Shown: one piece after another, positions 25,607 to 47,447 of the stretch
Numbering within the stretch: the stretch's first letter is position 1
Layout: the number at the start of each line of letters is the position of its first letter
DNA from: Actinomycetes bacterium
GTDB taxonomy: Bacteria > Actinomycetota > Acidimicrobiia > Acidimicrobiales > Palsa-688
Assembly (NCBI GenBank): GCA_021808785.1
Contig: JAKBAX010000003.1
Location: 1 to 51,515, forward strand
Length of the DNA stretch: 51,515 bases
Reading direction: 5' to 3'
Made by a program: the position numbers and the translations under genes
The notes under the pieces: generated by a model
Databases searched by the model: none
What the model was told of the DNA's origin: nothing
Seen by the model: only the letters and a program-made list of their open reading frames with translations

Positions 25607-26737
25607 ATGGCGACCACCAGCGAGGAACGTCTCATCTCGGCTGACGACCACGTGGAGATGAGCCACGACCGGGTCAAGGAATTCCTGGCCGCCAGGTACC
25701 ACGCCGGCTACGACGCCGGCGTGGACGCGTTCTACACCGCCATGGCCAAGAGCCGCTCCTCGGAGGCCAACCAGCGATGGCGGGACCAGAACGCGTTCGC
25801 CTCGAAGGCGACCACCGGCGGCACCGACAGCCTCATGTACCGCCGCCATGCGGCCGCCGGGCGACCCGGCCACTCCGACGCGGCCGAGCGTCTGAAGGAC
25901 ATGGACACCGACGGCGTGGCTGCCTCATCGAGCTACTGCGAGGTGAGCGCCTTCAGGTACCTCTACCTCATCAAGGAGGGGTGGCGGGAGTCGACACGGG
26001 CCTTCAACACCGCCTTGGCCGCCTGGACCGAAGCCGACCCCGGGCGGCTGATCGTCTCCTACCAGATCCCCATCCACGACATCGGCGCGGCCGTCGACGA
26101 GGTCCGGTGGGTCGCCGAGAGCGGGGGCAAGTCCCTGCAACTGCCGGTGTTCCCCAACGAGCTGGGGCTGCCCGACTACTGGGACCAGCGTTACGACCCT
26201 CTCTGGGCCGCCGTCCAAGAGGCCGATCTGCCGATCTGCCTGCACATCGGGCTCAACACCGCCCTCGACGACCTGGCCCGCCGGGATCCGACCCCCCAGC
26301 GCGGCATCTTCGTCCCCATGACCCCCCTGTCGACAGGCGAGCAGTTCGGTATGTGGATCATGGGCGGAGTGTTCGCCCGTTACCCCCGCCTCAAGGTCGT
26401 CTTCGTCGAACCCGGCATCGGTTGGGTGGCATGGTGGCTCAACATCGTGGACGACATGGCGACCCGCCAGGGCTACGAGTTCCCCGCCATCACAGAGCTG
26501 CCCAGCTACTACTTCAAGCGCAACGTGTTCCTCACGTTCATCGACGAACCCCACGTGGTCCGCCATGCCCACGAGACGCTCGGCATCGAGAACGTGATGT
26601 GGTCCTCCGATTATCCGCACCCGGTCTCGAGCTGGCCCCACTCCCGCAAGATCGTCGACGAGATCTTCGCCGGGGCGACCCCGGAGGATCGCCACCTGGT
26701 GGTCAACGGCAACGCCACCCGGGTCTGGAACCTGTAG
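25607..26737 (+). CDS. Amidohydrolase-2 family protein (second of four)
   Basis: This 376-residue TIM-barrel protein has ISADDHVEM as its first metal motif, with Asp-x-His in place of HxH. Further motifs are SYQIPIHDIGAAVDEVRW, ICLHIGLNTALDDL, VFVEPGIGWVAWWLN and IENVMWSSDYPHPVSSWPHSRKIV. The latter holds the conserved Asp and His of the active site. The start has GAGGTGCAGG upstream. Compared with the protein at 30919 it shares layout and the 'SEVSAFRYLYLIKEGW' region, so the two are close paralogues. Members of this group are often decarboxylases or C-C hydrolases; the substrate is unknown. It is convergent with the thiolase-like gene. Confidence 0.92.
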   Translation: MATTSEERLISADDHVEMSHDRVKEFLAARYHAGYDAGVDAFYTAMAKSRSSEANQRWRDQNAFASKATTGGTDSLMYRRHAAAGRPGHSDAAERLKDMDTDGVAASSSYCEVSAFRYLYLIKEGWRESTRAFNTALAAWTEADPGRLIVSYQIPIHDIGAAVDEVRWVAESGGKSLQLPVFPNELGLPDYWDQRYDPLWAAVQEADLPICLHIGLNTALDDLARRDPTPQRGIFVPMTPLSTGEQFGMWIMGGVFARYPRLKVVFVEPGIGWVAWWLNIVDDMATRQGYEFPAITELPSYYFKRNVFLTFIDEPHVVRHAHETLGIENVMWSSDYPHPVSSWPHSRKIVDEIFAGATPEDRHLVVNGNATRVWNL

Positions 26738-26758: not shown

Positions 26759-27940
26759 TCAGCCGGCGGTCAGGATGGCACCGGTCCGGCTCGATGTCAC
26801 GAGGACCGCCTCGGCGTCCTTCACCTGATTGACCGCGCTGCCCCGCAGCTGCCGGGTGGCCTCCAGGGCCAGGTTGAGCCCGTGGATGTACCCCTCTCCG
26901 ATCAGCCCCCCATTGGTGTTGCACGGCAGCCGCCCGCCGATGGCCAGGTCCCCGGCGGCCACGATGTCCTTGGCCTCACCCAGCCCGCAGAAACCCAGCC
27001 CCTCCAGCTGCATCAAGAAGATGGGGGTGAAGGCGTCGTAGATCATGGCTGCGTCGATGTCCTCCCGCCGGATGCCGAAGCGATCGAACAGCTGCTTCCC
27101 GAGGGCCACCGACCCGTCCATGACGGCCAGATCGCGACGGTAGAAGTCGGTGGCGATCTCCTGCTCGAACAGACCGGCCCCGGCCGCGGCAGCGATGACC
27201 ACGGGGCGGTGGGGCAGGTCCCGGGCCCGGTCGGCCCGGGTGATCACCAGGGCGACCGACCCGTCGGTCTGCTGGCAGCAGTCGAGCAGATGGATGCACG
27301 GCTCGACGATCCAGCGCGACGCCTGGTGATCGGCCAGGGTGATCGGACGCTCGTAGCCCCACGCCGCCGGGTTGGTGGCCGCGTAGTCCCGCAACTGCAC
27401 CACGGCCCGGCCGAAGTCCTCGCTCGTCACCCCGTAGGCGTGCATGTAGCGGGTGCTGTTGAAAGCCATCCACGAGGCCGGGGTCAGCACGCCGAAGGGC
27501 GTGCACCACTGCGCCGACGTGGTGCCCGAGTGGACGTCGTTCTGGCCCCTCGAGATCTGGGCCGCCCCGAAGCGGACCGGTCCGGAGCGGGCCTTGATGG
27601 CCCGGTAGGCCACCACGACGTCGGCCGCCCCGGCGGCCACCGCGGCGGCGGCGTGGAGGAGCACTCCCATGGAGCCACCCCCGCCGTAGGGGACCCGTGA
27701 CGAGAAGGTGATCTCCGGGAAGCCCATCGACCGCACCAGTTCGGTCTCGCTCACCGGGTCGATGGTGTAGCTGACCAGGCCGTCCACGTCCGCGGCGGTC
27801 AACCCGGCGTCGGCCAGGGCGGAGGTGACGGACTCGCAGGCCAGGCGCAGCTCGCTGCGGCCGGCGGCCCGGGAGAACTCGGTGGCCCCGATGCCGGCCA
27901 CCGCCGTCTGGCCGGCGAAGCCGGCACCCGGTGACGTCAT
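26759..27940 (-). CDS. Thiolase-like lipid-transfer aldolase (Ltp2-like), module A
   Basis: This 393-residue protein has the SCP2-thiolase fold but not the thiolase chemistry set. The nucleophilic Cys position reads YGGGGSMGVLLHAAAAVAAG without Cys. The thiolase 'GHP' loop is replaced by NTNGGLIGEGYIHGLN with Tyr351, and Tyr301 lies in MIYDAFTP. Tyr residues at such places define the Ltp2 aldolases, which cleave beta-hydroxyacyl-CoA side chains of steroids together with a DUF35 protein. The DUF35 gene is directly upstream and overlaps as ATGA. A retro-aldol step is therefore likely; the substrate is not known. Confidence 0.88.
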   Translation of the reverse strand: MTSPGAGFAGQTAVAGIGATEFSRAAGRSELRLACESVTSALADAGLTAADVDGLVSYTIDPVSETELVRSMGFPEITFSSRVPYGGGGSMGVLLHAAAAVAAGAADVVVAYRAIKARSGPVRFGAAQISRGQNDVHSGTTSAQWCTPFGVLTPASWMAFNSTRYMHAYGVTSEDFGRAVVQLRDYAATNPAAWGYERPITLADHQASRWIVEPCIHLLDCCQQTDGSVALVITRADRARDLPHRPVVIAAAAGAGLFEQEIATDFYRRDLAVMDGSVALGKQLFDRFGIRREDIDAAMIYDAFTPIFLMQLEGLGFCGLGEAKDIVAAGDLAIGGRLPCNTNGGLIGEGYIHGLNLALEATRQLRGSAVNQVKDAEAVLVTSSRTGAILTAG

Positions 27941-28350
27941 CGGGTCACCGCCTCGAACACCGGCACCGCGTTGCCGCCGGCGGTGGGCACGAAGATGACC
28001 GAGACGGGCATGCCGATCTCGATCTCACCCGGCTCCACGCCGACCAGGTTGGACACGATCCGCACCCCTTCCTCCAAATCGATCAGGGCCGCCTTGACCG
28101 GGTAGTCGAAGGCCGGGTTCTGTGGGTGGTGGAGCACCGCCCAGCTGTAGACGGCGCCCCGGCCCGACAGCTCCACCACGTCGGTCTCGAAGGACCCGCA
28201 GTGCGGGCACCTCGGGCGGGGCGGGTGCCGGAAGACGTGGCACCGGGTGCAGCGCTGGGCCACCAGGCGGTGGTGGGCGGCCGCCTCCCAGAAGAACTCG
28301 TTGTCCTGGGTCACCATGGGATCGGGTCTGGTCACCGCGCTGTCGGTCAC
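27937..28350 (-). CDS. DUF35 zinc-ribbon/OB-fold partner of the aldolase, module A
   Basis: This 137-residue protein has the DUF35 arrangement. An N-terminal helix (DNEFFWEAAAHHRLVAQ) leads to a rubredoxin-like ribbon CTRC-x13-CPHC, then an OB fold with GAVYSWAVLHHPQNPAF, VKAALIDLEEGVRIVSNLVG and IGMPVSVIFVP. In steroid degraders, such a domain (ChsH2 C-terminal part) docks onto the Ltp2 aldolase and may hold the CoA. The GTG start is preceded by AGAGGAGAG. It overlaps the aldolase start by 4 bases, so the partners are made together. The fused hydratase domain seen in ChsH2 is absent here. Confidence 0.9.
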   Translation of the reverse strand: MTDSAVTRPDPMVTQDNEFFWEAAAHHRLVAQRCTRCHVFRHPPRPRCPHCGSFETDVVELSGRGAVYSWAVLHHPQNPAFDYPVKAALIDLEEGVRIVSNLVGVEPGEIEIGMPVSVIFVPTAGGNAVPVFEAVTR

Positions 28351-28414
28351 TTCACGCTCTCCTCTCACGTACCGGATTCCGGCACCCACCGGACGGACCG
28401 TACCGGGTGGCCGG

Positions 28415-30847
28415 TCAATCGACCCAGCGTTCCTCGAAGACCGCCTTGGCCTCGACCAGCTTGTCGATCTCGGCGCCGTCGAATCCGTGCTGCTCCATGA
28501 TCTGACGGGTGTGCTGCCCGCACACCGGCGGCGGTCCCCAGATCCGCTGCGGGGTGTCGGAGAAGGTGATGGTCTGACCGAAATGCTCGAACCGGCCCAG
28601 TTTGGGGTGCTCCTGCACCACCACCATCTGGTGGGCATGCATCTCGGGATCCTCGTAGATGTGCTTGCCGAACTCCCCGTCGCACACCTCCGCCGGGACT
28701 CCGGCGGCGTCCAGCTGCTGCCAGGCGCTCGGCGCCGACCGGACCGAGAACCACCCCTCGAGGTCAGCGAACCCGGGGTCGGACACCCCGGTGAGACCGG
28801 CCAGGGCCCGACGGTGCGCCGGGGTCGCAGCGGCCACGCACACCCAGCCGTCGGTCGCCTCGTACAGCCGGTAGTAGGGGCTCAACCCCAGCTGCATGCC
28901 GTCCAGGCGGGGCCGGGGCAGAGCGGTCCCATCAGGGCGTACCGCCGCCATGGACGCGACCAGGAGGCCGGCGTTGAGGATGGAGGTGTCCACCCCCTGG
29001 GGCTGCCCGGTGCGGGCCCGGTGGTAGAGGGCCTGGATGACGCCGACGGCCGACAAGAAGCCGTTGCCGGTGTCGCCGAGCGACGTCATGCTCCAGAACG
29101 GGCGGCCCCCCTGCCAAGAGCCGCCGTCCTCCCATGTGACCCCGGCCAGGGAACACCCGGTCTGGTCGTTGCCGGGGGAGTCGGACCTCGGGCCGCGGTC
29201 GAAGCCCCGGGTGTGGCAGTAGATGATGTCGGGGTTGACCTCCCGCAACGACGCCTCGTCGCACTTCAGGCGCCGGAGAGCGTCGCGTCGCATGTTGGAA
29301 TGGACCACGTCGGCCCGTTCGACCAGGCGGTGCAAGACCTGCAGGCCCTCGGGCGTCTTCAGATCGATGCCGATGCTGCGCTTACCCCGGTTACAGCCGT
29401 AGGCGATGTGCCGGGAGTGCCAGAACGGGTCGCGCCAGGCGTTGATCTTGATGACGTCGGCGCCCAGGTCGGCCAGCACCTGGGTGCCGAAGGGGCCGGC
29501 CACCGCGAAGCCGAGGTCGAGGACCGTAACCCCCTCGAGCGGGCCCCGCTGCTCCGGCGCCACCCCGACCGGCGGTGCCGACGCCGGCGCCGGCGCCGAC
29601 GGGCGCGGCGGGGACGAGGGCCGGGCGCCGGCGGGTGCCATAGGCAGCTCACCGTCGTGCTGGCCGGCCCTCGGTGGCGGCCCCTGCACCCGACCGGGGG
29701 TGGCGCTGAGCCCGTAGAGGATACCGGCCTGGCGGAGCATCCCGTGCTCGGGATGGGCCACGTCGACCACCGCCCCCTCGGCCTGCAGAGCCCCGTCGGC
29801 CAGAGCCTCTTCCGGGGTGCGCACCGGCTGCAGGGGCACGCCGCCCCGGCGGGCCACTTCGACCCACTCGTCGCTCGGGAACCGGGCGAAGGCCTCCTTC
29901 ATCAGCGGGTAGTAGTGGGCCAGTACCACGATGTTCTCCGGGTCGGGCTCGATCCGGTCGGGGTCGTCGAGGACCCGGTCGATATCCCTGCGCAGCTCCA
30001 ACGTGTCGCCGTCGGCGCTGGTGAGGGTGAACTGGGGGTTCGGCACCCACTGCTCGATCCAGCGCCCGTCGGAGCACTCGAAGAAGCCCTTGGGGGCCCG
30101 GCGGTCGTAGATCCACGAGCGGAAGCCCTTGGCGTCGGGCCGGCCGACCCGCAGCCACTTGGACGCGGTGGCGGAGAGGGCGGCCTGGAGAAGGGAGGTC
30201 TCCACCCGCTGGCCCCGCCCGGTACGCAGCCGGGCGAGGAGGGCGGCGTTGATCCCGACCGACGCCAGGAACGCGGCACCCATGCTCAGCCAGGGGGTGT
30301 AGGTGAATATGGGGCCCTCCCGCGGGGCCCCCGGCTCCATGCCCTCGGGGATCTCGAGGTCCGGCAGAAACGGCTCGTCGTCGTGCATGTATGTGACCGC
30401 GCCGCCCAGCTCCCCGCGCTGGACGTGCCACATGCCGGTGCGGGCCGCGACCAGCGCTTCGTAGCCGGGCCGGTCGCGGTGCGCGGCGTGCCGGCCGTAG
30501 CCGGTGATGGAGCAGTGGACGACCGCGGGGTTGCGCCGGAGCAGGGCGTCGCCGCCCAGCCCCCAACCGTCCAGCGTTCCCGGCGAGAAGGTGTCCAGCA
30601 CCACGTCGGCATCGTCGACCAGACCGAGCAGCAGCTCCCGGCCGTCCGGCCGGGCCAGGTCGGCGGTGACGCTGCGGCGGCCCCGCAGCCACACGTCGTA
30701 GCCGGGAGTGCCCCGAAAGGGATCGCCACCGGGCGGCTCCACCTTCACCACGTCGGCCCCGTGGTCGGAAAGCAGCATGCCGGTCACCGGCCCGGCCACC
30801 CCCCACGAAAGATCGAGCACACGGATACCGTCGAGCACACTGGCCAT
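28415..30847 (-). CDS. Fused double CaiB/BaiF CoA transferase
   Basis: The protein has 810 residues and two full CaiB-type domains joined by an Ala/Pro-rich linker (ARPSSPPRPSAPAPASAPP). The first starts LDGIRVLDLSWGVAGPVTGMLLSDHGADVVKVEPPGGD, the second LEGVTVLDLGFAVAGPFGTQVLADLGADVIKI. In these enzymes an Asp forms the acyl anhydride. The second half keeps Asp in PGNDQTGCSLAG, while the first half has Glu in RPGYEALVAARTG, so only one half may be active. A homodimer of single domains is usual, and the fusion could allow a heterodimer-like site. The ATG follows GGAGGGAA. It is the first gene before the DUF35/aldolase pair and probably activates its substrate. Confidence 0.93.
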   Translation of the reverse strand: MASVLDGIRVLDLSWGVAGPVTGMLLSDHGADVVKVEPPGGDPFRGTPGYDVWLRGRRSVTADLARPDGRELLLGLVDDADVVLDTFSPGTLDGWGLGGDALLRRNPAVVHCSITGYGRHAAHRDRPGYEALVAARTGMWHVQRGELGGAVTYMHDDEPFLPDLEIPEGMEPGAPREGPIFTYTPWLSMGAAFLASVGINAALLARLRTGRGQRVETSLLQAALSATASKWLRVGRPDAKGFRSWIYDRRAPKGFFECSDGRWIEQWVPNPQFTLTSADGDTLELRRDIDRVLDDPDRIEPDPENIVVLAHYYPLMKEAFARFPSDEWVEVARRGGVPLQPVRTPEEALADGALQAEGAVVDVAHPEHGMLRQAGILYGLSATPGRVQGPPPRAGQHDGELPMAPAGARPSSPPRPSAPAPASAPPVGVAPEQRGPLEGVTVLDLGFAVAGPFGTQVLADLGADVIKINAWRDPFWHSRHIAYGCNRGKRSIGIDLKTPEGLQVLHRLVERADVVHSNMRRDALRRLKCDEASLREVNPDIIYCHTRGFDRGPRSDSPGNDQTGCSLAGVTWEDGGSWQGGRPFWSMTSLGDTGNGFLSAVGVIQALYHRARTGQPQGVDTSILNAGLLVASMAAVRPDGTALPRPRLDGMQLGLSPYYRLYEATDGWVCVAAATPAHRRALAGLTGVSDPGFADLEGWFSVRSAPSAWQQLDAAGVPAEVCDGEFGKHIYEDPEMHAHQMVVVQEHPKLGRFEHFGQTITFSDTPQRIWGPPPVCGQHTRQIMEQHGFDGAEIDKLVEAKAVFEERWVD

Positions 30848-30870
30848 CAGATTCCCTCCACGTCCCCACA

Positions 30871-30885
30871 ACCATAGCAAGTGGT
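30871..30885. promoter_or_regulatory. Inverted repeat in the divergent promoter between CoA transferase and amidohydrolase genes
   Basis: ACCA and TGGT arms flank a 7-bp centre (TAGCAAG). The element shares ACCATAG with the site at 25551-25561, which lies in an equivalent position before another amidohydrolase gene. It may be an operator or a shared promoter part. The match is short. Confidence 0.4.
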
Positions 30886-30918
30886 ATCGTTAACCCGACG
30901 CCCAAGGAGGGGACCCCG

Positions 30919-31974
30919 TTGCCCGACCGTTTGATCTCTGCCGACTCCCACGTGGCCATCTCGATCGACACCGTGCGCGAGAAGGTGCCGTCGCAACTGC
31001 ACGCCATCTTCGACGAGGCCATCGCCGCACAGGCCCGCGTCGACTCCGATCTGCGGGGCGGCCGCTCGTTCCCCCTCGACTCGTTCGACATGGAGGCCAT
31101 GCGCGACCCCGGCTACCGGGACCCGGTGGCCCGGCTGGCCGCGATGGACCGCGACGGCGTCCACGCCGAGGTCCTCTACTCGGAGGTCAGCGCTTTCCGG
31201 GCCTTCGGGCTGGTCAAAGGGGACTGGAAGCCGATCAGCCGGGCCTTCACCGACGTACTGTCCGACTTCGCGGCCGAGGACCCCGACCGGCTGGCAGTGT
31301 CGTACCAGGTGCCGATCATCGACATCCCATACGCCGTTACCGAGGTGCAGCGACTGGCCGCTCTGGGCGCCCGCTCGGTGCACCTACCCAACTTCCCCTC
31401 CGAGTTCGGCCTGCCCGACTACCACGACTCATCCTACGATCCCCTGTGGGCCGTGCTGCAGGAGACCGGCCTGTCCATCAGCCATCACCTCGGCAACCGG
31501 GTGTGGCTCTACGACATATTCCGGCGCGACCCCACCCCGCAGTTCGCCATCTTCACCTCGATGCCGTCGCTCGCCCTCTCGGAGGTCATCGCCTGGTGGA
31601 TCCTGACAGGCACCCTCGAGCGTTTCCCGGGCCTGCAGATCGTCTTCGTCGAACCACAGCTGTACTGGATCCCCGGGTTCCTGGCCCAGTTGGATCGCAA
31701 GGCGGACGGGCGTTACGACCTGCCCGGACTGAAGATGAAGCCGAGCGAGTACTTCCGGCGCAATATGGCCTGCACCTTCATGGACGACGAGGTGGGACTC
31801 AGCCTCCGGCACCGCATCGGGATCGAGAACATCCTCTGGTCCACCGACTTCCCTCACCCGGCCACCACGTGGCCCCACTCCCGCGAAGTGGTGGACCGCC
31901 AGTTCGCCGCCGTGGCGGAGGACGAGAGGGAGCTCATCTGCTGCGGCAATTCGGCCCGGATCTACAACCTCTGA
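30919..31974 (+). CDS. Amidohydrolase-2 family protein (third of four)
   Basis: This 351-residue protein starts at TTG, with AAGGAGGGG six bases upstream. It has ISADSHVAIS (Asp-x-His), LAVSYQVPIIDIPYAV, ISHHLGNRVWLYDIF, VFVEPQLYWIPGFLAQLD and IENILWSTDFPHPATTWPHSREVV. The metal-site pattern is like that of the paralogue at 25607. The glycine-tryptophan motif 'GIGW' is replaced by QLYW, so the active-site pocket may differ. It is divergent from the CoA transferase-aldolase operon and probably regulated with it. A decarboxylase or C-C hydrolase role is the family's usual one. Confidence 0.92.
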   Translation: MPDRLISADSHVAISIDTVREKVPSQLHAIFDEAIAAQARVDSDLRGGRSFPLDSFDMEAMRDPGYRDPVARLAAMDRDGVHAEVLYSEVSAFRAFGLVKGDWKPISRAFTDVLSDFAAEDPDRLAVSYQVPIIDIPYAVTEVQRLAALGARSVHLPNFPSEFGLPDYHDSSYDPLWAVLQETGLSISHHLGNRVWLYDIFRRDPTPQFAIFTSMPSLALSEVIAWWILTGTLERFPGLQIVFVEPQLYWIPGFLAQLDRKADGRYDLPGLKMKPSEYFRRNMACTFMDDEVGLSLRHRIGIENILWSTDFPHPATTWPHSREVVDRQFAAVAEDERELICCGNSARIYNL

Positions 31975-32013
31975 CGCTTTGCGGGTCGACAGACGCGCTC
32001 GGACGCGGTCGTG

Positions 32014-32049
32014 GAGGTGGAGCTCGGAGGCGAGGTGGAGCTCGGAGGC
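32014..32049. repeat. Perfect 18-bp tandem duplication between convergent genes
   Basis: Two identical 18-bp units (32014-32031 and 32032-32049, starting GAGGTGGAGCTC) lie in the 97-bp gap between amidohydrolase 30919 and the molybdenum hydroxylase stop. There is no coding frame. It resembles the other short tandem duplications in this window. Confidence 0.9.
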
Positions 32050-32071
32050 GAGGCGGCAGTTATCACCCTTC

Positions 32072-34411
32072 TCAGGTCCGGCCCATCAACTCGAGTAGCC
32101 GCGACGGGGGCAGGTACTGCTCCCTGATGACCACGCCGAAGGGGGACAAGGCGTCCTCGATGGCATTGGTGACCGCCGCCGGCGCCCCGATGGCCCCGCC
32201 CTCCCCCACCCCCTTGAAATCGATGTCGGCCAGGGGTGGCCCGTGCAGGTGGAGCACCTCGATGGGCGGGATGTCCAGCGCGTTCGGCAGCAGGTAGTCC
32301 ATCAAAGTGGCGCAGAGCGGGTTGCCGTCTTCGCTGTAGGCGGACCGCTCGAGCAGTACCGCCCCGATCCCCTGGGCCACCCCGCCCCGGACCTGCCCGT
32401 CCACCACCGCCGGGTTGATGACCGGCCCACAGTCCTCGGCCACCACGTACCTGACCACCCGGACCTGGCCCGTCTCCACGTCGACCTCGACGATGGCGCA
32501 GTGCGCCGCCTGCGACCAGGTCCCCTCTCCGGAGGAATAGGTTCCGGTGACCTCGAGGCCCGGCGCCCCGTCGTCGCTCAGCAGACCGGGGGCCCGGTGG
32601 GCCAGGTCGGCCAGGCGGGTCAGGGTCATCGCTCGCGTCGGTGCCCCCTCGGGGACGACCCGGCCCTCGGCCAGGGCCAGGTCCGCCGGGTCGATCTCGA
32701 GGACCCGCCCGGCCATGGCCAGTAGCCGGTCCCGGGCCGCGCGCGAGGCGGCAATGACCGCGCCGGAGGCCAGATTGGCCGATCGGCTGCCACCCGTGCC
32801 GACCAGGTTGAAGGGCGTCACGGAGGTGTCACCGTGCACTACCCGCACCGCGTCGAGACCGACGCCGAGGATGTCCGCGGCCAGCTGGGCCAGCGTGGTC
32901 TCGTGCCCCTGGCCGTGGGGCTGCTGGGAGGTCCAGAGGGTGAAGGTACCGTCGGGTTCCAGCCGGACACGAGCCTGCTGGACGGTGCGCGGCGCCGCGG
33001 TGGCGCCCATGGCGGCCACTACGCTCGGGGGCAGCGGGGCCGGCTCCAGGACGTTGGCCACCCCGATGCCCAGGTAGCGGCCGCGCCCGCGTTGCTCACG
33101 CTGATGGGCCCGGAACTCCTCGTAGCCGACGGCTTCGACCGTCGCTGTCAACACCCTCTGCGACCCGATACCGGTCAGCTGCGGACCGGTGCACATGCGG
33201 TCGGGAACCGCCCCGTCGGGCCATAGATTACGGCGCCGCAGCTCGACCGGATCAATCGACATGGTTCGGGCCACCCGGTCGAGAATGCGTTCCCGGACCC
33301 AGGTCTCCGCCTCCCATGGACCGCGATAGGGAACGTAGGTCGCCTTGTTGGTGGCGACCACGATCGCCTCGAAGTCGAGCGTTTCGATCCGGTACGGCCC
33401 AGGCAGGAGGACCCGGACCAGGTTGGTGACGGCGGCCGCGGCGAAACCGGACATGGGGTAGGCACCCTGGTCCAGCGTCATCCTCACCCGCAGGCCCCGC
33501 ACCACGCCCCCGGCGTCGACGGCGGCTTCCACCCCCATGGTCTCCTCGCGGGCCTGCCCGCCGAAGACCAGGTTCTCCAGCCGGTCCTCGATCCACTTGA
33601 CCGGGCGGCCCAACGCCACCGAGGCGGCGCACACCGCCACGTCCTCCCGTAACAGGTGGCCCTTCTGGCCGAAGGCCCCCCCGATGTCGCCGCAGCGGAC
33701 CCTCACCGTGGCGGCCGGTCGGGCGAGCAGCCGGCTCAGGGCCAGCCGCACCGCGTGGGGGTTCTGGTGCGACACGACGTATTCCAGGTCCCCCGTGCGG
33801 GGGTCGTAGGTAGCCACTCCGCCGTGGCCCTCCATGGGGACGTTGGCGTGGCGGTGCTGCACCAGCGTCTCCCGCACCACGGCGTGGGCCGCCGCGAAGG
33901 CCCGGTCCGGGTCGCCTACCACGTGACGGGACCGGAACACCACGTTGGTGCCCGCGTCCGGGAACACGAGCGGGGCGCCGGGCTCCTGGGCGGCGGCCGC
34001 CCCGGTCACGGCCGGGTGGGGCTCGTAGTCGACCTCGACGGCCTCGCAGGCGTCCTCGGCGAGGGGCCGGGAGGTGGCCACGACCAGGGCCACCGGCTCG
34101 CCCACCGCCCGCACCACGCCACGAGCCAGGACCGGGAAGGGGGCGGCGTACAGTCCGGGCATGGCCGTCGGCGTGATATCAGCGGCCAGGGACCGCATCT
34201 CGGAGTCGGTCCACACGCCGACCACGCCGGGCCCCTCCCGGGCCGCGTCGACGGCCACGCTGCGGAGCCGGGCATGCGGCGCAGTGCTGCGCAGGAAGGC
34301 CGCGTGCAGCAGGCCCGGCGCCATTACGTCGTCGACGTAACGGCCCGTACCGGTGAGGATTCGGTGATCCTCGACGCGGGTCACCGGCTGCCCGGTGAGA
34401 CGGCCGATCAC
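32072..34411 (-). CDS. Molybdopterin-dependent hydroxylase large subunit (xanthine dehydrogenase/CoxL family)
   Basis: This protein of about 779 residues is the catalytic subunit of a molybdenum hydroxylase, which inserts oxygen from water into C-H bonds of aldehydes or N-heterocycles. Visible parts are the small N-terminal domain (GQPVTRVEDHRILTGTGRYVDDV), GQKGHLLREDVAVC, the substrate loop YRGPWEAETWVRERILDRVA, QPHGQGHETTLAQLAADILG, TGGSRSANLASGAV, and the catalytic Glu in GVGEGGAIGAP. The GTG start comes 1 base after the SDR stop (TAGCGTG). No gene for the Fe-S or FAD subunit is in the window, so the partners must be elsewhere. It is the last gene of the nine-gene operon. Confidence 0.93.
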   Translation of the reverse strand: MIGRLTGQPVTRVEDHRILTGTGRYVDDVMAPGLLHAAFLRSTAPHARLRSVAVDAAREGPGVVGVWTDSEMRSLAADITPTAMPGLYAAPFPVLARGVVRAVGEPVALVVATSRPLAEDACEAVEVDYEPHPAVTGAAAAQEPGAPLVFPDAGTNVVFRSRHVVGDPDRAFAAAHAVVRETLVQHRHANVPMEGHGGVATYDPRTGDLEYVVSHQNPHAVRLALSRLLARPAATVRVRCGDIGGAFGQKGHLLREDVAVCAASVALGRPVKWIEDRLENLVFGGQAREETMGVEAAVDAGGVVRGLRVRMTLDQGAYPMSGFAAAAVTNLVRVLLPGPYRIETLDFEAIVVATNKATYVPYRGPWEAETWVRERILDRVARTMSIDPVELRRRNLWPDGAVPDRMCTGPQLTGIGSQRVLTATVEAVGYEEFRAHQREQRGRGRYLGIGVANVLEPAPLPPSVVAAMGATAAPRTVQQARVRLEPDGTFTLWTSQQPHGQGHETTLAQLAADILGVGLDAVRVVHGDTSVTPFNLVGTGGSRSANLASGAVIAASRAARDRLLAMAGRVLEIDPADLALAEGRVVPEGAPTRAMTLTRLADLAHRAPGLLSDDGAPGLEVTGTYSSGEGTWSQAAHCAIVEVDVETGQVRVVRYVVAEDCGPVINPAVVDGQVRGGVAQGIGAVLLERSAYSEDGNPLCATLMDYLLPNALDIPPIEVLHLHGPPLADIDFKGVGEGGAIGAPAAVTNAIEDALSPFGVVIREQYLPPSRLLELMGRT

Positions 34412-34412
34412 G

Positions 34413-35171
34413 CTACGGCTCGAAGGGCCGGGTTCCGGCCCGCTGTATAACCAGCTCGCCGACGATCGCGTTGGATGACAAGGACAAAAGAAACGACATG
34501 GACGCAGCCACATCTTCGGGGCGGATCATGCCCGGCGCGTCGATCGCCCCGCCGAGCGGCGCGGTCATCGGGGTGTCAACGAAGCCGGGGCAGAGTGCGC
34601 AGGCCCGCACCCCGTGGATCGATTCCTCCGCGTTCATGGAGCCGACGAGAGAGACCAGAGCGCTCTTGGCCGCCGAGTAGGCGGCGAAGCCGGGCGTCGG
34701 AGCCAGCCCCGAGACCGACGCAGTGGCCACGAACCAGGTCGTCTCGCCGACCCGGCCGTCCGGCCCGGGCGGCCGACGCAGCAGCGGCAGGGCGCTGCGG
34801 GCCAGGGCGAAGGCCGATTCCACATGGACGGCGAGGAGGCGGCGCAGGGCACGCCGGTCCGTGTCGGCCACCTCGGCCCGGCGACCGCCGCCCGCGTTGG
34901 ACACCACGCAGTCCAGACGGCCGAAGCGGGTCACGTGGGCGTCGACCGCCTCCTCGGCCCGGTCGGGCTGACCGAGGTCGGCCACCAGCGTGTGCACCTG
35001 CCGGCCGGTAGCCGCTAGCGCGGAGGCCGCCTCCCCCAATCGGTCCGGGTCTCGTCCCACCAGGGTGAGGTCGAAGCCCGAGCCGGCGAGAACGCCGGCC
35101 ACGGCCCGGCCGATACCCGACGAGCCACCGGTCACCAGGGCGGCCCGGAAGACCTCCGACGCCGCGCTCAC
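34413..35171 (-). CDS. Short-chain dehydrogenase/reductase of the nine-gene operon
   Basis: The protein has 252 residues. TGGSSGIG, SNAG, and Ser152, Tyr165 and Lys169 (YSAAK) are all present. The second strand ends in VGRDPDRL, which favours NADP through Arg rather than the acidic residue of NAD enzymes. The C-terminus is short (VIQRAGTRPFEP). The GTG start overlaps the stop of the thiolase-like gene as GTGA. In the setting of two crotonases and an aldolase it could be a beta-hydroxyacyl-CoA or ketone oxidoreductase; no substrate is evident. Confidence 0.9.
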   Translation of the reverse strand: MSAASEVFRAALVTGGSSGIGRAVAGVLAGSGFDLTLVGRDPDRLGEAASALAATGRQVHTLVADLGQPDRAEEAVDAHVTRFGRLDCVVSNAGGGRRAEVADTDRRALRRLLAVHVESAFALARSALPLLRRPPGPDGRVGETTWFVATASVSGLAPTPGFAAYSAAKSALVSLVGSMNAEESIHGVRACALCPGFVDTPMTAPLGGAIDAPGMIRPEDVAASMSFLLSLSSNAIVGELVIQRAGTRPFEP

Positions 35172-36313
35172 CGGTCGGCAGTCAGGATCAGGGCCGATCC
35201 GTCCATCAACGCCCCCGAGGTCACGGCCGCCACCTCGTGGCGGGCGGCCTGGCGGGATCCGCCCCGACCCTGTACCTGCAGGACCGCCTCGCCGACGGTG
35301 TTCATACCGTGCAGGTAACCCTCGGAGAGCAGGCCCCCGTGGGTGTTGGTGGGCAGCCTCCCGGCGAGGGTGGTGGCGCCGGACCGCACGAACGCCCCCG
35401 AACCGCCCCGCTCGCACAGCCCGAGCCCCTCCAGGCCGATCAGCACGGTGCTCGTGAAGCAGTCGTAGATCTGGGCCACCTGCACGTCGCCCGGGGTCAA
35501 GCCGGCCGCCCCGAACAGGTCGTCGCGCAGGTGGCTGGTGTAGTTGCGGGTGTAATCATCCCAAAGGGCGTGGTCCCCGATGTCGAGCCCGGGCCGGGGA
35601 CCGGCCCGGTAGGCACCAGACGCCACCACCGCCGGCGGGTGGCGCAGATCCCGGGCCTGCTCCAACGAGGTGACCAGCACGGCACAGGCCCCGTCCACCT
35701 CCACGGTGCAGTCGTCGGCCCGGAACGGGTGCACGACGTGAGGGGCGGCCAGGTAATCCTGCAGGGTGAGCGGGCGCCGGCGCACGGCCCGGTCGTTGTC
35801 GACCGCATAGGCCCGCTGGGCCACTGCCACCGCAGCCAGGTCCTCCTCGCCCTGGCCCGTCTCGTACACGAAACGCTGGGCCCACATGGCCACGTACATC
35901 ATGTACGCGTCATAGCCGATGGGATAGCGGAACTGGGCACCCATCCCGCCGAAGCGCATGGTGCCCACCCTCGCCCCGGACCGCCCGTTGAGGGCCCGGT
36001 ACACCAGCACGTTCCGGGCCCGGCCGGTCTCGACCGCCATGGCTGCGAGCCACACCAGATAGCACGGCGCCTGGCCGCCCATATCCGCGTCGACCGAGAA
36101 CCGCAGGCCGGGCAGGGCGAGTGTGGTGGCCACCGCCTGGGCCGGAACCGAGTCGTCCATCACCCGGAACGACGCGATGCCGTCCACCGCGGCGACGTCG
36201 AGGCCGGCGTCGTCGACCGCCCGGCGGCAAGCCTCGGTGGCCAGGCTGAGGACGCTCCGCCCGGAGTCCCGGCTGAAGGCGGTGTAGCCGACACCGGCGA
36301 CCGCGGCCCTCAC
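35168..36313 (-). CDS. Thiolase-like lipid-transfer aldolase (Ltp2-like), module B
   Basis: This 381-residue protein is a second SCP2-thiolase-like aldolase. It has the pattern of module A: the nucleophile region reads MGGQAPCYLVWLAAMAVETG with Cys out of the canonical place. Tyr283 is in IYDCFTS, and Tyr333 in NTHGGLLSEGYLHGMN replaces the thiolase 'GHP' loop. It lies directly downstream of a DUF35 gene with a GTGA overlap, as in module A. A retro-aldol cleavage of a hydroxyacyl-CoA to a ketone or aldehyde plus a short acyl-CoA is the best guess, by analogy with Ltp2. Confidence 0.88.
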   Translation of the reverse strand: MRAAVAGVGYTAFSRDSGRSVLSLATEACRRAVDDAGLDVAAVDGIASFRVMDDSVPAQAVATTLALPGLRFSVDADMGGQAPCYLVWLAAMAVETGRARNVLVYRALNGRSGARVGTMRFGGMGAQFRYPIGYDAYMMYVAMWAQRFVYETGQGEEDLAAVAVAQRAYAVDNDRAVRRRPLTLQDYLAAPHVVHPFRADDCTVEVDGACAVLVTSLEQARDLRHPPAVVASGAYRAGPRPGLDIGDHALWDDYTRNYTSHLRDDLFGAAGLTPGDVQVAQIYDCFTSTVLIGLEGLGLCERGGSGAFVRSGATTLAGRLPTNTHGGLLSEGYLHGMNTVGEAVLQVQGRGGSRQAARHEVAAVTSGALMDGSALILTADR

Positions 36314-36714
36314 CCGCCTCCCTCCGGCCCGGCGAAGCGCAACTCCGTCCAATCGTCGTGGTCCACGTACACCGGCGTGACCGCCATCCCGATGCGGGCC
36401 GCAGCGGGCGGCTCCAGGCGACCGTGGATCCGGCCTCCACCGTCGAGGTCCACCGTCGCCACGCAGTACGGCACCTGGTCGGCGGCGGCCGGGGTCAGGG
36501 CCCGCTCCACCCGCACCCACGAGTACACGGTTCCGGTGCCGGGCGGCTCCACCTCCTCTCCGCCGTCGGTCCCGCAGTACGGGCAGGTCGGCATGCGGGG
36601 GAACCGGCGGCGGCGGCAGGCGGGGCACTCCTGTAGCAACAGACGGTGCTGGGCCAGGCCCTGCCAGAACGGTCCGCTCTCGGTGTCTCGATCGGGGGCG
36701 GGTGGGGCGGTCAT
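36310..36714 (-). CDS. DUF35 zinc-ribbon/OB-fold partner, module B
   Basis: This 134-residue protein has the zinc ribbon CPAC-x13-CPYC followed by an OB fold (TGTVYSWVRVERALTPAAADQVPYCVATVDLDGGGRIHGRL). The N-terminal helix GPFWQGLAQHRLLLQ is the part that contacts the aldolase in known complexes. It is close in plan to the protein at 27937, but the ribbon loop is more basic (RRRRFPRMP). The start overlaps the crotonase stop as ATGA, and its own stop overlaps the aldolase start as GTGA, so all three are made in a coupled way. Confidence 0.9.
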   Translation of the reverse strand: MTAPPAPDRDTESGPFWQGLAQHRLLLQECPACRRRRFPRMPTCPYCGTDGGEEVEPPGTGTVYSWVRVERALTPAAADQVPYCVATVDLDGGGRIHGRLEPPAAARIGMAVTPVYVDHDDWTELRFAGPEGGG

Positions 36715-37520
36715 CGGCCTCGGAATCGGGGCGGGCGCTTCTCGGCGAAGGCGGCCAGCCCCTCTGGCGCGTCCTCGGAAGTCAGGCAGTAGTAGGCGTC
36801 TCGCTCCAGCTCGTAGCGCAACCCGGCGTCGACGCTGCCGTTGTCCGCCCAGAGCCGGTTCATCACCTGCTTGGCGTTCGCCACCGCCAACGAGCTGAGG
36901 CCGGCCAGGTGCCGCACCGACTCCAGGCCCGATTCGAGGAGCGAGTCATCATCGACGACCCGGCTCACGAGTCCCCACTCGGCCGCTTCGTCGGCGCTCA
37001 ACAAGCGGCCGCTCAGGACCAGCTCGGCGGCCCGGGCCCGGCCGATCATCCGGGGCAGGAGGGTCAGCACCCCGCCGCCACCCATCTGCCCGAAGGTCAG
37101 GTGCCCGTCGCCGATGCGGGCCGAGCGGGCCGCTATGGCATAGTCACAGTTGAGCATCAACTCGAGCCCGCCGGCCACCGTCACCCCGTTGACCAGCGCC
37201 ACCACCGGCACCGGCAGGTCACGCAGGCGACCGAAGACCCGGTGCAACTCGGATACGAAGCGGGGAAAAGCGGCGGCATCGCGCTGCAGCCTCCGGTATT
37301 TCTTCATGTCCCCACCGGCGCTGAAAGCCCGGCCCCGCCCGGTCACGAGAACCGCCCGCACCGTCGGGTCCCCGGCGATCTGGTCGAGGGCCGAGTCGAG
37401 GCCTTCCAGCATGACCGGGTCGATCGGGTTGAGCTCGGCCGGCCGGTCCAGGCTCACCAGGGCCGCCATTGCGGCCCGCCGGAGCCGGAGCCGCTCCACT
37501 GCGATGGTCGCTTCACTCAC
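36711..37520 (-). CDS. Crotonase-family protein of the nine-gene operon (second)
   Basis: The protein has 269 residues with AFSAGGDMKKYRR and GVTVAGGLELMLNCD as oxyanion motifs, so the first catalytic Glu is kept. The second Glu position reads RIGDGHLTFGQMGGGG, with His. This would fit an enzyme that needs one acid-base, such as an isomerase or a hydrolase. The GTG start overlaps the CoA ligase stop by 8 bases. It sits between the ligase and the DUF35/aldolase genes, so it may supply the hydroxyacyl-CoA for cleavage. Confidence 0.9.
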   Translation of the reverse strand: MSEATIAVERLRLRRAAMAALVSLDRPAELNPIDPVMLEGLDSALDQIAGDPTVRAVLVTGRGRAFSAGGDMKKYRRLQRDAAAFPRFVSELHRVFGRLRDLPVPVVALVNGVTVAGGLELMLNCDYAIAARSARIGDGHLTFGQMGGGGVLTLLPRMIGRARAAELVLSGRLLSADEAAEWGLVSRVVDDDSLLESGLESVRHLAGLSSLAVANAKQVMNRLWADNGSVDAGLRYELERDAYYCLTSEDAPEGLAAFAEKRPPRFRGR

Positions 37521-39147
37521 CCTGCGAGCCTGCCAGGTCGGCGACCAGTACGTGCTTCTGCACCTTGCCCGACGCCGTCATGGGCAGGCCCGAGAGGACT
37601 TCGAGGCGCTCGGGCAGCTTGTAGGTGGCCAAGCCGGCCGCTCGCAGTCGGGCCGCCACCGTGGCGAGGTCCAGCCGTGCACCGCTATGGAGGACCACGC
37701 AGGCGCACATCCGCTCGCCCAGCCGGGCGTCGGGGAGGCCGACGACGGCGGCCTGTTCGACCTCCTCGAAGGCGACCAGCAGCTCCTCGATCTCCCTCGG
37801 CGCGATGTTGAGGCCGCCCCGGATGAGGATCTCCTTGCGCCGCCCGACGACGGTCACATAGCCGTCGCCATCCGACGTGACCAGATCGCCGCTGCGCACC
37901 CAACCGTCGTCCACGAAGGTGGCTGCGGTGCGCTCCGGGTCGTCGAAGAACCCGACGCACGTGTTGGGCCCCCGGACATACAGCTCGCCCGGCTGGCCGT
38001 CGGGGACCGGGCGCATCTGCTCGTCGCAGACCCTGATCTCCACGTGGCTCATGGGTCGACCGTCGGTCAGGCGCCGCTGCCACGCCGGGGCGCCGGGCCG
38101 GTTCCAGGTTCCCACCAGCACCTCGGTGGATCCGTAGAGCCGCAGGACTTCGACCCCCACGTCACCGGCCTCGTCCACGAGAGAGGGCGGTACCGGCGCG
38201 CCCCCGCACCCGAACACCCGCATCGAGGGCAGGCCGACCCCCCGCCGGCGGGCGGCCGTCACCAGGTCGCGCAGGAAGGTGGTGGCGGCCAGTGTGTAGG
38301 AGCACCGCTGTGCCCTGATCAGATCCACCGCCGCGTCGGCGTCCCACTGGTCCTGGAGCACCAGGGGCAGGCCGTGGTACAGGGCGAAGCGCATCCCGTA
38401 GTTGAAGCCGGTCGAGTGACCGAGCGGGGACGGCATCCACACCACGTCGTCGGGGCCCACACCGAGATCGGTGTAGGCCACCCGTACGCTGAAATTGGCC
38501 GTCTGCTCCGTGTGCATGATGGCCTTGGGCCGAGCCTCGGTACCGGAGGTGAAGATCAGCTCGGACACCGCGTCGGCACGACCCGGCGCCAACTTCTGCG
38601 CCACTGATCCCCCGGTGAGGTCCGCCATGGCCACGTTTGCGGATCTGGGCCGAGCACCGACGACGACCTGCGCGGGCCGGACCCCGCACCGCTGCGCCAC
38701 CTCCTCCATGAGCGCCTGGTGGTCGCACCCTCGGTACTCGGCCGGGGTGAACACGACGTGGGGCCGGGCCGTGGTGAACACGTTCTCCAGCTCCTTGGCC
38801 CGGTAGTTGGGCAGCAGCGGGTTGGCCACCGCGCCGACGGACTGCACCGCCACGGCGGCCACCACCAGTTCGTAGCAGTTCGGCAGCTGTATCGAGACGA
38901 CGCGCCCCGGGCCTACGCCACGCTCGGTCAGCCAGGACGCCACCGCTTCGGCGTCGCCGCAGAGCTCCGCTCGGGTGTGCGGCCCGGTACGGTCCACCAC
39001 CGCGACGCGGTCGGGCCCGATCTCAGCGTGTCCCGCCACCTGGCCGGCGAGGGTGGCATCGTCCCACCATCGTTCGGCCCGGTATTGGTGCCGTCTCTCC
39101 GGAGCGGTGACGACGTCCTCGAACCGGCCGTGCTCCGGTTCAGCCAC
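37513..39147 (-). CDS. Acyl-CoA synthetase (AMP-dependent ligase, FadD-like)
   Basis: The protein has 544 residues with the ANL-family motifs: LIFTSGTEARPKAI at about residues 197-210, YGSTEVLVG, RSGDLVTSDGDGYVTVVGRRKEILIRGGLNIAPREIEELL, and the terminal Lys in TASGKVQKHVL. It activates a carboxylate as the acyl-AMP and then forms the CoA thioester. The GTG start overlaps the crotonase stop by 8 bases. It is the likely entry step of the operon; the acid cannot be named. The aromatic or short-chain versus long-chain choice depends on the substrate-pocket residues, which I cannot judge. Confidence 0.94.
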   Translation of the reverse strand: MAEPEHGRFEDVVTAPERRHQYRAERWWDDATLAGQVAGHAEIGPDRVAVVDRTGPHTRAELCGDAEAVASWLTERGVGPGRVVSIQLPNCYELVVAAVAVQSVGAVANPLLPNYRAKELENVFTTARPHVVFTPAEYRGCDHQALMEEVAQRCGVRPAQVVVGARPRSANVAMADLTGGSVAQKLAPGRADAVSELIFTSGTEARPKAIMHTEQTANFSVRVAYTDLGVGPDDVVWMPSPLGHSTGFNYGMRFALYHGLPLVLQDQWDADAAVDLIRAQRCSYTLAATTFLRDLVTAARRRGVGLPSMRVFGCGGAPVPPSLVDEAGDVGVEVLRLYGSTEVLVGTWNRPGAPAWQRRLTDGRPMSHVEIRVCDEQMRPVPDGQPGELYVRGPNTCVGFFDDPERTAATFVDDGWVRSGDLVTSDGDGYVTVVGRRKEILIRGGLNIAPREIEELLVAFEEVEQAAVVGLPDARLGERMCACVVLHSGARLDLATVAARLRAAGLATYKLPERLEVLSGLPMTASGKVQKHVLVADLAGSQGE

Positions 39148-40012
39148 GCCGCTCCTCGGCCTCGGCCTCGGCCTCGGCCTCTTCGGCCGCCCGCACCTCC
39201 TCCCAGGCCCGGGCAACGGTGCCCTGCCATTGCGGGGGCCGGCGCTCCATCCACGCCCGCGGCCCCTCCGACGCGTCGGGTCCTCCCATCACGACCCGGT
39301 GGTAGGCCGTCTCCATCTCGACCGTCCGTGCCAGCCCGGCCCCGGACCACAGGAGCCGCTTGGACATGGCCATCGACACCGGCGAGCAGTGGACGGCGAT
39401 CTCACGGGCCATCTCCAGGGCAGCCGGCCGTACTTCGTGCGCCGGCAGCGCCACCGACGCCAGGCCCCAACGCAGCGCATCGGCACCGAGGAAGGTTCGC
39501 CCGGTCAGCATGACGTCCGCCGCCACCCCCATCGACGCGAACCGCGGCACCGTCCAGTGTGACCCGCCGTCGCCCATCACCCCCCTCCGGACCTGCGGGA
39601 TCGCCAACTTGGCGTCGAGGGCGACGATCCGGATGTCGCATTGCATGGCGGTGGTGAAACCGATGCCGATGGCCGGCCCGTTGACCGCCGCGATCACCGG
39701 CTTGCGCACCTCCCACGCCGGGGGATCGAAGGGCTGGGCCGAGAAATCCCGCTGCGGCCTACCGAAGCTGTTGGCCTCGGGCCTCATGTCGGCTCCGGCG
39801 CAGAAGGCCCGTCCCGCCCCCGTCAACACCACGACGCGCACGTCGTCACGATCGTCGCACTCCCGGTAGGCCGCCGACACCTGCTCGATCATTGAGGACG
39901 ACAGCACGTTGAGGTCGTCGGGACGATTGAGCAGGATGAGGGCCACGCCGTCCTCCACGGTGACCAGCACCGGGCGCTCCCCTTTGTCCGCTTCCCCCGG
40001 CAGTTCGGCCAT
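39140..40012 (-). CDS. Crotonase-family protein of the nine-gene operon (first)
   Basis: The protein has 290 residues from ATG 40012, or 276 from a GTG at 39970 that has GGGGAG well placed. The motifs are AFCAGADMRPEAN and GPAIGIGFTTAMQCD; the first catalytic Glu is replaced by Thr, and the second by Gln in AKLAIPQVRRGVMGDGGSHW. As in the protein at 22324, both Glu residues are missing. The C-terminus ends in an AEAEAEAE run, encoded by four perfect 6-bp repeats at 39155-39178. It precedes the CoA ligase with an 8-base overlap. A simple hydratase role is doubtful. Confidence 0.9.
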   Translation of the reverse strand: MAELPGEADKGERPVLVTVEDGVALILLNRPDDLNVLSSSMIEQVSAAYRECDDRDDVRVVVLTGAGRAFCAGADMRPEANSFGRPQRDFSAQPFDPPAWEVRKPVIAAVNGPAIGIGFTTAMQCDIRIVALDAKLAIPQVRRGVMGDGGSHWTVPRFASMGVAADVMLTGRTFLGADALRWGLASVALPAHEVRPAALEMAREIAVHCSPVSMAMSKRLLWSGAGLARTVEMETAYHRVVMGGPDASEGPRAWMERRPPQWQGTVARAWEEVRAAEEAEAEAEAEERRG

Positions 40013-40056: not shown

Positions 40057-41241
40057 CTAATCCAGATAGGCGGCGAAGCGCCGCCGGTACGCCCCGAAGC
40101 GCTGCTCGAGCGCGGTCTCGGTGATGCCGAAGTCGGCCCCGTCGTAGCTGTGGTGTCCGTACTTGTCCTTCGGGTTGGCGGCCCGCCAGTCGAGCATGGC
40201 CTGGACCGTGCCATCGCCCAGGTCGTGGTCCAGCCACTTGTACAGACGGCCGATCTCGGCGACGGGGTCGGCCTGGAACGACCGGAATCCGATGTCGAAG
40301 AACCGGCCGTCCCGGGCCGGGTCGCGGCGGAAGGCCAGGCACCGGTCGAGTGCGAGGCCCCACTGCTCCATGTTGAGCTCTCCTACGTAGGCCGGGTCGA
40401 TAGCCGGGTTGCCGGCCTGCAGCATGGTGAAGTAGAGGTCCGACACCGACGGCAGGACGCTCGACACGTCGCGATGGGTCTGGACGAATCGGGTGCCGGG
40501 GAAGACCTTCTCGTAGGCGTCGAGGAACAGGGTGTGGGTCGGGCTCTTCAGGCGCCAGCGCTTCTCCGGCGTCTTCCACTGGAGCAGCTTGAGGACCCGC
40601 TTCTCGTACAGGTAGGTGGGCTCCATGTCGCAGTGGGCGAACCAGTCGGCGTAGGTCGGGATGTGGGCCGACACCAAGAAGATCTGCGCCTTGAACTCGA
40701 GCGCCATCAGATCGTGGTCCTCCATCGGGCCGTCCGGCGACTGGGGCAGCATCGACCGCAACCGCTCGGCCACGTGGCTGTGGCCCATATCCACCGCCAG
40801 GCGGGCCCCGGCCATCCGGGCCTCGTCGGCCTCGGGCGAGACCCCCGGTGGCGGGCAGGGGGTGGTCTCCTCCCACAGCCTCAGGTTCCGGAACGACCGG
40901 TCCTCGCCCAGCATGTGCGACAGGGCCGTGGACCCGGTGCGCGGGAAACCGACGCCCAGCAGGTCGATCTCCACGTCCTGGTCGCCGATCTCGGGGTGGC
41001 GGCGGTACCAGTCCTCGACCTGGAGGCGGGTCGCCAGCGGTCGCACGAGCGAGTCGAAGAACGCCTGCTCGCCGTAGTCGTTGAACGTGGCCTCGCCCAG
41101 GGCCGAGCGGACCAGCACCTCGAGACCCTCCCGCCAGGAGTCACCGCCATAGTCGGAAAGCCCGGTGGTCTCCCGGGCCCGGTCCACCACCTGCCCGATG
41201 CGCCCGCTGACCGCACCTGCACCCGCCGGTGTGGCCGTCAT
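40057..41241 (-). CDS. Sulfotransferase-family protein
   Basis: This 394-residue protein has the PAPS-binding loop LLGVGFPRTGSTALSHML (about residues 94-111) and the 3'-phosphate motif TRFVQTHRDVSSVLPSVSDL. A long C-terminal part, including YKWLDHDLGDGTVQAMLDWRAANPKDKYGHHSYDGADFGI, matches the actinobacterial Sulfotransfer_3 type. Such enzymes move sulfate from PAPS to a hydroxyl or amine, but many members in catabolic clusters have no tested function. The ATG overlaps the stop of the CrtC/AttH-like gene (ATGA). Its presence with a CoA ligase and crotonases is unusual. Confidence 0.9.
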   Translation of the reverse strand: MTATPAGAGAVSGRIGQVVDRARETTGLSDYGGDSWREGLEVLVRSALGEATFNDYGEQAFFDSLVRPLATRLQVEDWYRRHPEIGDQDVEIDLLGVGFPRTGSTALSHMLGEDRSFRNLRLWEETTPCPPPGVSPEADEARMAGARLAVDMGHSHVAERLRSMLPQSPDGPMEDHDLMALEFKAQIFLVSAHIPTYADWFAHCDMEPTYLYEKRVLKLLQWKTPEKRWRLKSPTHTLFLDAYEKVFPGTRFVQTHRDVSSVLPSVSDLYFTMLQAGNPAIDPAYVGELNMEQWGLALDRCLAFRRDPARDGRFFDIGFRSFQADPVAEIGRLYKWLDHDLGDGTVQAMLDWRAANPKDKYGHHSYDGADFGITETALEQRFGAYRRRFAAYLD

Positions 41242-45296: not shown

Positions 45297-45404
45297 GGCG
45301 TCCCTCCTGATCGGCCCGGTGTGCCGGTCCGATGGTAGACCGCCCCGAACGCGCTGACATCGACATCGAACTCCACCCCGCCGCCGGCCGGGCCGACGCC
45401 CGGC

Positions 45405-45487
45405 ATCTGTTACCGGGTCCTCCAATCTGTACCGGGTGCTCAAATCTGTACCGGGTGCTCAAATCTGTACCGATTCCTCAAATCTGT
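45405..45487. repeat. 19-bp direct repeat array with ATCTGT cores
   Basis: ATCTGT occurs at 45405, 45425, 45444, 45463 and 45482, that is, with a 19-bp period after the first unit (20 bp). Three units read ATCTGTACC in full, two of them followed by the same GGGTGCTCAA string. The spacing is close to two helical turns, so the sites would face one side of the DNA, as in iterons or regulator arrays. The array is less GC-rich than the surrounding DNA. Confidence 0.9.
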
Positions 45488-47400: not shown

Positions 47401-47410
47401 CCCTCCCTCG

Positions 47411-47446: not shown

Positions 47447-47447
47447 A

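Follow-up and report, generated by a model that had tools for sequence, protein, structure and literature searches.

The question raised by this locus is whether two thiolase-fold enzymes, each encoded next to a DUF35 protein and lying within 10 kb of each other, act in succession on one substrate or serve different pathways. The window (the whole stretch of DNA analysed) spans 51.5 kb at the start of contig 381, part of a draft genome from an Actinomycetes bacterium (4.9 Mb, 538 contigs); this is a metagenome-assembled genome (MAG), ~90% complete, and absences from it are hence not absolute. An initial annotation had called both enzymes Ltp2-like, pointed to the steroid side chains that known pairs cleave, and suggested two successive cleavages or two substrates. 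We find that modules A and B are probably two independent DUF35-dependent retro-aldolase (beta-hydroxyacyl-coenzyme A (CoA) lyase) modules of the thiolase fold, belonging to separate pathways. Homology, residues, operons, tree and independent distribution are the observations on which this reading is built. Below, G000 is the source genome, G201 the one congener seen, G012 and G155 are MAGs, and L numbers designate family members; those outside the window were studied through fetched neighbourhoods rather than whole-genome sequence.

Searches of the PDB with phmmer gave TcLtp2 (6OK1) as top match for both aldolases, ALD_A (E = 9e-129) and ALD_B (8.5e-68), and with E-values this low the homology is beyond chance. 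The ChsH2 DUF35 domain of the same entry was the top match for DUF35_A and for DUF35_B. The AlphaFold models (mean predicted local distance difference test score 79.9 for ALD_A, which is weak at residues 120-149, and 89.0 for ALD_B) also had 6OK1 as best fold match, with TM scores of 0.88 and 0.92, respectively. For the NCBIfam model NF005892 (PRK07855 lipid-transfer protein, cut-off 469 bits), ALD_A scores over the threshold (501.6) and ALD_B under it (322.2). Among named relatives of ALD_A, the nearest (68-72%) come from MAGs of Acidimicrobiia and Acidimicrobiales and the next (64-65%) from Blastococcus, which makes an uncultured acidimicrobial actinobacterium the probable source of the DNA.

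Residues set both enzymes apart from thiolases. Tyr301 and Tyr351 of ALD_A and Tyr283 and Tyr333 of ALD_B align with Tyr294 and Tyr344 of TcLtp2, the catalytic pair of that enzyme (PMC12329534), and fall in the columns occupied by the HDCF His and the GHP His in two real SCP2-type thiolases of G000. The column of the nucleophilic Cys is Gly in both, so that the canonical set (nucleophilic Cys, HDCF His, GHP His) reads Gly, Tyr, Tyr; the Tyr pair is retained in those orthologs of ALD_A and ALD_B that were seen. The tyrosines had thus been correctly assigned to catalytic places of a thiolase. The accompanying claim, that both enzymes lack the canonical Cys and the GHP His, holds for the nucleophilic Cys (Gly) and the GHP His (Tyr), but not for the second thiolase Cys (HDCF Cys), which ALD_B retains as Cys285 and which is Ala in ALD_A.

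Neither active site reproduces that of TcLtp2 or of CtSal. TcLtp2 carries YDHF, with His296 as its proposed oxyanion-hole residue (PMC12329534); this motif is YDAF in ALD_A and YDCF in ALD_B. The combination that defines Sal-type enzymes, YDC plus Gln at the position of Tyr344 of Ltp2, is not found either, as ALD_A pairs YDAF with Tyr and ALD_B pairs YDCF with Tyr. In CtSal, Cys304 is the catalytic acid and Gln occupies the site of the Tyr acid of Ltp2 (PMC12329534). ALD_B holds both known acids, because it has kept the HDCF-type Cys that serves CtSal as well as the acid Tyr of Ltp2. Alignment of 24 relatives further revealed that four residues of the C-terminal loop, which read TGVP in Ltp2 proper, are missing from ALD_A and from the other non-YDHF members of the Ltp2 superclade, and that the oxyanion Gly391 of CtSal falls in this loop. 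An Arg stands immediately ahead of the gap (Arg385 in ALD_A) in actinobacterial A orthologs and in YENF paralogs, and YDAF, GEGYIHG and SRTG are repeated in all five A orthologs examined from other genomes (5/5). The joint loss of the His and the loop suggests a rebuilt oxyanion hole in ALD_A.

The two enzymes occupy different places in the phylogeny (70 rows, with approximately unbiased (AU) tests on a reduced set and poorly resolved deep branches). ALD_A and its orthologs form a clade (support 100) that the Ltp2 superclade (99) includes and Ltp2 proper (YDHF, 100) does not, while ALD_B forms a clade with its G127 and G012 orthologs (100) outside the superclade, close to other YDCF/Tyr lineages. 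Residues, tree and AU tests rule out true thiolases (p = 2.9e-5 for A and 2.3e-8 for B grouped with thiolases). The AU tests likewise rejected ALD_B within Ltp2 proper (1.7e-7) and ALD_B with the Sal clade (3.2e-4). A recent tandem duplication is ruled out: A and B are 36-38% identical, and a clade uniting them had an AU p of 2.7e-7. Grouping A with Ltp2 proper gave an AU p of 0.004, a value set aside here because three YDAF sequences inside Ltp2 proper had been left outside the constraint. The tree with Ltp2 and thiolases, which the initial annotation had proposed, groups neither aldolase with thiolases, but does not return two Ltp2 enzymes. "Ltp2-like" survives as a statement of type, retro-aldolase and not thiolase (by sequence, fold, Tyr pair, tree and AU tests); as a placement it hides a difference, A being sister to Ltp2 proper while B stands outside the superclade with a different active site. 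Since YDAF is also found inside Ltp2 proper (L152, L156, L166), the His-to-Ala change probably happened more than once.

Genomic organisation and distribution also separate the modules. Both DUF35/aldolase pairs had been correctly located, in the same order and with 4-bp overlaps (ATGA in A, GTGA in B), and the difference in activating enzymes is borne out: a fused double CaiB protein lies upstream of DUF35_A, and an AMP-ligase opens the B operon. Orthologs of A (≥64%) occur in ten other genomes, and those of B (≥63%) in G201, G127 and G012, together with relatives of the ligase, the crotonase and DUF35_B. Because the two co-occur only in G000 and G201, of the same genus, A and B assort independently outside it. 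Even in G201 they lie on separate contigs, where A has other neighbours and an inverted transferase that is only 48% identical.

The short distance between the modules, which had been pointed out, is what chance would give. PRK07855 is matched 29 times in G000 and the DUF35 OB domain 28 times, and 24 of the 29 family members lie within ~600 bp of a DUF35 gene; related genomes have 7-21 PRK07855 matches. When 24 DUF35-paired modules are placed at random on 4.9 Mb, ~60% of placements contain at least one pair within 8.4 kb. Non-random clustering of A and B is therefore not shown, and with so many paralogs their proximity is unremarkable. Active-site classes in G000, at least eight in number, include YDAF/Y, YDCF/Y, YENF/Y, YDNF/Y, YDGF/R, YDCY/Y and YDCY/Q, plus HDCF/H in two true thiolases.

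Other paralogs of G000 have features of their own. Contig C474 bears three thiolase-fold/DUF35 pairs in 13.5 kb. Two natural fusions join DUF35 and a thiolase-fold aldolase in one frame (L007:1498-3207(-) on C236 and L012:1498-3957(-) on C145); they are ~570 aa each and of the YDGF/Arg class, and high GC content at third codon positions continues across the join. We found nothing specific in the literature on a DUF35-thiolase fusion. The YDGF class, with Arg at the site of the Ltp2 Tyr acid or GHP His, includes L007, L009, L010, L012, L015 and L016 in one clade (support 98), and to our knowledge has no characterised member.

Table 1. Features of modules A and B and of their neighbours in the window.
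Feature	Coordinates	Strand	Basis and remarks
Amidohydro_2 protein, recurrent next to ALD_A orthologs (50-53% in several)	25607..26737	+	Pfam, neighbourhoods
ALD_A, thiolase-fold aldolase, YDAF class	26759..27940	-	Pfam Thiolase_C_1 (PF22691), residues, tree
DUF35_A, stand-alone partner, 137 aa, C4 zinc ribbon and OB fold	27937..28350	-	Pfam zf-ChsH2 and OB_ChsH2_C
CoAT_dbl, fused double CaiB/BaiF (type III) CoA-transferase	28415..30880	-	Pfam; start likely near 30847
Second Amidohydro_2 protein, divergent from CoAT_dbl; in G184 an 81% ortholog adjoins module A	30919..31974	+	
Molybdenum aldehyde oxidoreductase/xanthine-dehydrogenase-type large subunit, last in B operon	32072..34513	-	Start probably near 34411; 77% in G201, same place
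Short-chain dehydrogenase (SDR), overlaps ALD_B end (GTGA)	34413..35171	-	Pfam; 65% in G201, same place
ALD_B, thiolase-fold aldolase, YDCF and Tyr333	35168..36313	-	Pfam Thiolase_C_1 (PF22691); GTG start at 36313
DUF35_B, stand-alone partner, 134 aa, C4 zinc ribbon	36310..36714	-	Pfam zf-ChsH2 and OB_ChsH2_C
Enoyl-CoA hydratase/isomerase (crotonase), candidate hydratase	36711..37520	-	81% in G201, 71% in G127
Acyl-CoA ligase (AMP-binding)	37513..39216	-	Start not fixed; 73% in G201, 65% in G127

Module A reads CoAT_dbl, DUF35_A, ALD_A, with 65 bp between the end of CoAT_dbl and DUF35_A. The catalytic Asp of CoAT_dbl is invariant in domain 2 only (8/8 fused proteins compared), and benzylsuccinate CoA-transferase subunits are among its solved relatives; on the fused CaiB protein we found nothing specific in the literature. 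The fused transferase is retained near ALD_A orthologs, and the amidohydrolase usually too, in Acidimicrobiia, Blastococcus and order-level relatives, and in proteobacteria the fused transferase also stands next to YDAF and YDNF relatives. The 51-kb window encodes at least four Amidohydro_2 proteins (9410-10714, 25607-26737, 30919-31974 and 46144-47475). Module B runs from ligase through crotonase, DUF35_B, ALD_B and SDR to the molybdenum large subunit, overlaps of 4-8 bp joining the first five genes, and this order is maintained in G201 at 65-86% identity. The crotonase scored 184 bits against the EchA19 model, under the cut-off of 400. The molybdenum subunit, for which no flavin adenine dinucleotide (FAD) or iron-sulphur subunits are visible, likewise ends the operon in G201. 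Elsewhere in the window, a sub-threshold DUF7064-like protein (41238-42278) and a neighbouring one with no Pfam match (44124-45443) lie next to a sulfotransferase (40057-41241).

We propose the reaction, the roles of base, acid and oxyanion residues, the pairing with DUF35 and the handling of products as follows. Each aldolase would act on a beta-hydroxyacyl-CoA in a cleft closed by its DUF35 protein, the first Tyr (301 in A, 283 in B) serving as base toward the beta-hydroxyl. The cut would fall between the alpha and beta carbons and release either a ketone or an aldehyde along with a shortened acyl-CoA, and the second Tyr (351 in A, 333 in B) would protonate the enolate, with Cys285 also available in B. 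Module A would be fed by the fused CoA-transferase and module B by the ligase and the crotonase as hydratase; the SDR and the molybdenum oxidoreductase, encoded last in the operon, would probably process the carbonyl product of B.

Several observations weigh against this proposal. ALD_A is without the oxyanion His of TcLtp2, whose replacement cuts efficiency 14-fold (PMC12329534), and without the C-terminal loop that carries the oxyanion Gly in CtSal, so catalysis in ALD_A may differ. No hydratase adjoins module A, and no acyl-CoA dehydrogenase adjoins either module. In the B operon the molybdenum large subunit has neither a small nor a medium partner, and in G127 the orthologs of DUF35_B and ALD_B are separated by ~6 kb.

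Comparison with known systems puts these differences in context. The steroid C3 side-chain aldolase TcLtp2-ChsH2 (6OK1) shares with A and B the fold, the Tyr pair, the Gly in the Cys column and a DUF35 partner with a C4 zinc ribbon. It differs in having YDHF (YDAF in A, YDCF in B) and, compared to A, a TGVP-type C-terminal loop; identity is 54% for A and 40% for B. Unlike that system, A and B have stand-alone DUF35 proteins and no igr-type neighbours, and lie outside Ltp2 proper and outside the superclade, respectively. The bile-acid C5 side-chain aldolase CtSal-CtShy (9MYR, PMC12329534) has the same fold, a DUF35 partner and the Tyr base, and its YDC Cys is shared with B, yet in CtSal Gln stands in place of the second Tyr of A and B, identity is 27-32%, and the DUF35 protein (CtShy), a fusion with MaoC, carries a C3H1 zinc site. 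A precedent for a stand-alone DUF35 gene (ChsH4) beside an aldolase of this fold (Atf1) and a reductase (ChsE6) is the Atf1-ChsH4-ChsE6-KstR3 operon of Mycolicibacterium neoaurum, a genome with 18 candidate atf genes, for which knockout and complementation gave in vivo evidence of C22-C23 retro-aldol cleavage (PMC10398937). Atf1 is nevertheless a Sal-type enzyme (56% to Sal1) whose substrate is a sterol intermediate, and a ligase, a crotonase and a molybdenum oxidoreductase are present in module B in addition. In anaerobic toluene degradation, the Bbs system also unites two CaiB units (CoA-transferase BbsEF) and a DUF35/thiolase-fold pair (BbsAB) in one pathway. In module A, by contrast, a single fused protein contains both CaiB units, and the thiolase catalytic residues are missing from the thiolase-fold enzyme.

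Two more specific extensions of independent modules concern B. The series YDCY/Gln, YDCF/Tyr, YDHF/Tyr may mark successive steps by which Sal-like acids gave way to Ltp2-like ones, which we put forward only as a hypothesis because deep branches are poorly resolved. It is conceivable, though short of probable, that ALD_B represents an uncharacterised YDCF plus Tyr class that combines the Cys acid found in Sal with the Tyr acid found in Ltp2, an intermediate in which gain of the Ltp2 acid preceded loss of the Cys, acting on a non-steroid substrate, and that G000 harbours a radiation of about two dozen DUF35-paired enzymes in at least eight active-site classes. A somewhat doubtful proposal is that the substrate of module B is a non-steroid acid, alpha,beta-unsaturated or aryl-propanoid, which is broken down through CoA ligation, hydration by the crotonase and retro-aldol cleavage to an aldehyde and acetyl- or propionyl-CoA, the aldehyde then being oxidised by the molybdenum enzyme. 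The gene order retained in the congener agrees with such a route, as do the aryl-AMP and feruloyl-CoA ligases that are the solved relatives nearest to the B ligase, but this kinship is distant, nearby partners for the molybdenum subunit are lacking, and the SDR could work ahead of the aldolase.

It is unlikely that A and B are steroid side-chain aldolases making two successive cuts on one substrate. Cholate degraders do use Sal and then Ltp2 in this way, steroid aldolases are the nearest characterised relatives of A and B, and G000 has one Sal-like paralog (YDCY/Gln) and KstD-like dehydrogenases, which reach 50% identity with a KstD-like protein from an actinobacterium; because of these KstD-like genes, steroids are possible substrates. 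KshA, however, is absent from G000 in a search that detects it in four Ltp2-bearing genomes. Both Blastococcus genomes and G155 (carriers of A) and G012 (a carrier of B) are without it too, although some others have it. There is no YDHF Ltp2 among the alignable G000 paralogs, no ChsH1/ChsH2-type hydratase in either module, and no igr-type neighbour in the window. A steroid substrate for A or B is unsupported and rests on kinship with Ltp2 and Sal. Successive cleavage fares no better, since A and B are not sisters, form separate operons, occur jointly within one genus only and lie on different contigs in G201; "two substrates" was the better half of the alternative. Two KstD-like FAD dehydrogenases of G000 (C445:12167-13798, 43%; C206:21869-23494, 50%) are on contigs that also bear L002 and L024, and a link to 3-ketosteroids is possible for those modules, not for A or B. 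Also unlikely is another chemistry of the fold (Claisen condensation, beta-keto cleavage without Cys, or decarboxylation): the fold is common to the DUF35-partnered thiolase BbsAB and the PhlABC acyltransferase, and B retains the HDCF-type Cys, but there is no nucleophilic Cys to form an acyl-enzyme, and both thiolase His are Tyr in each aldolase and its orthologs.

Two independent retro-aldolase modules would bear on how this family is understood. Ltp2 and Sal, both known for cleaving steroid side chains as aldolases, rely on different catalytic acids; the class of B carries both. The occurrence of A in genomes without KshA suggests that DUF35-dependent retro-aldol cleavage may extend beyond the 9,10-seco steroid pathway. 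These results call for caution in annotating such genes as acetyl-CoA acetyltransferases or lipid-transfer proteins, and A, together with about two dozen paralogs, widens the chemistry to be sought in uncultured Acidimicrobiia.

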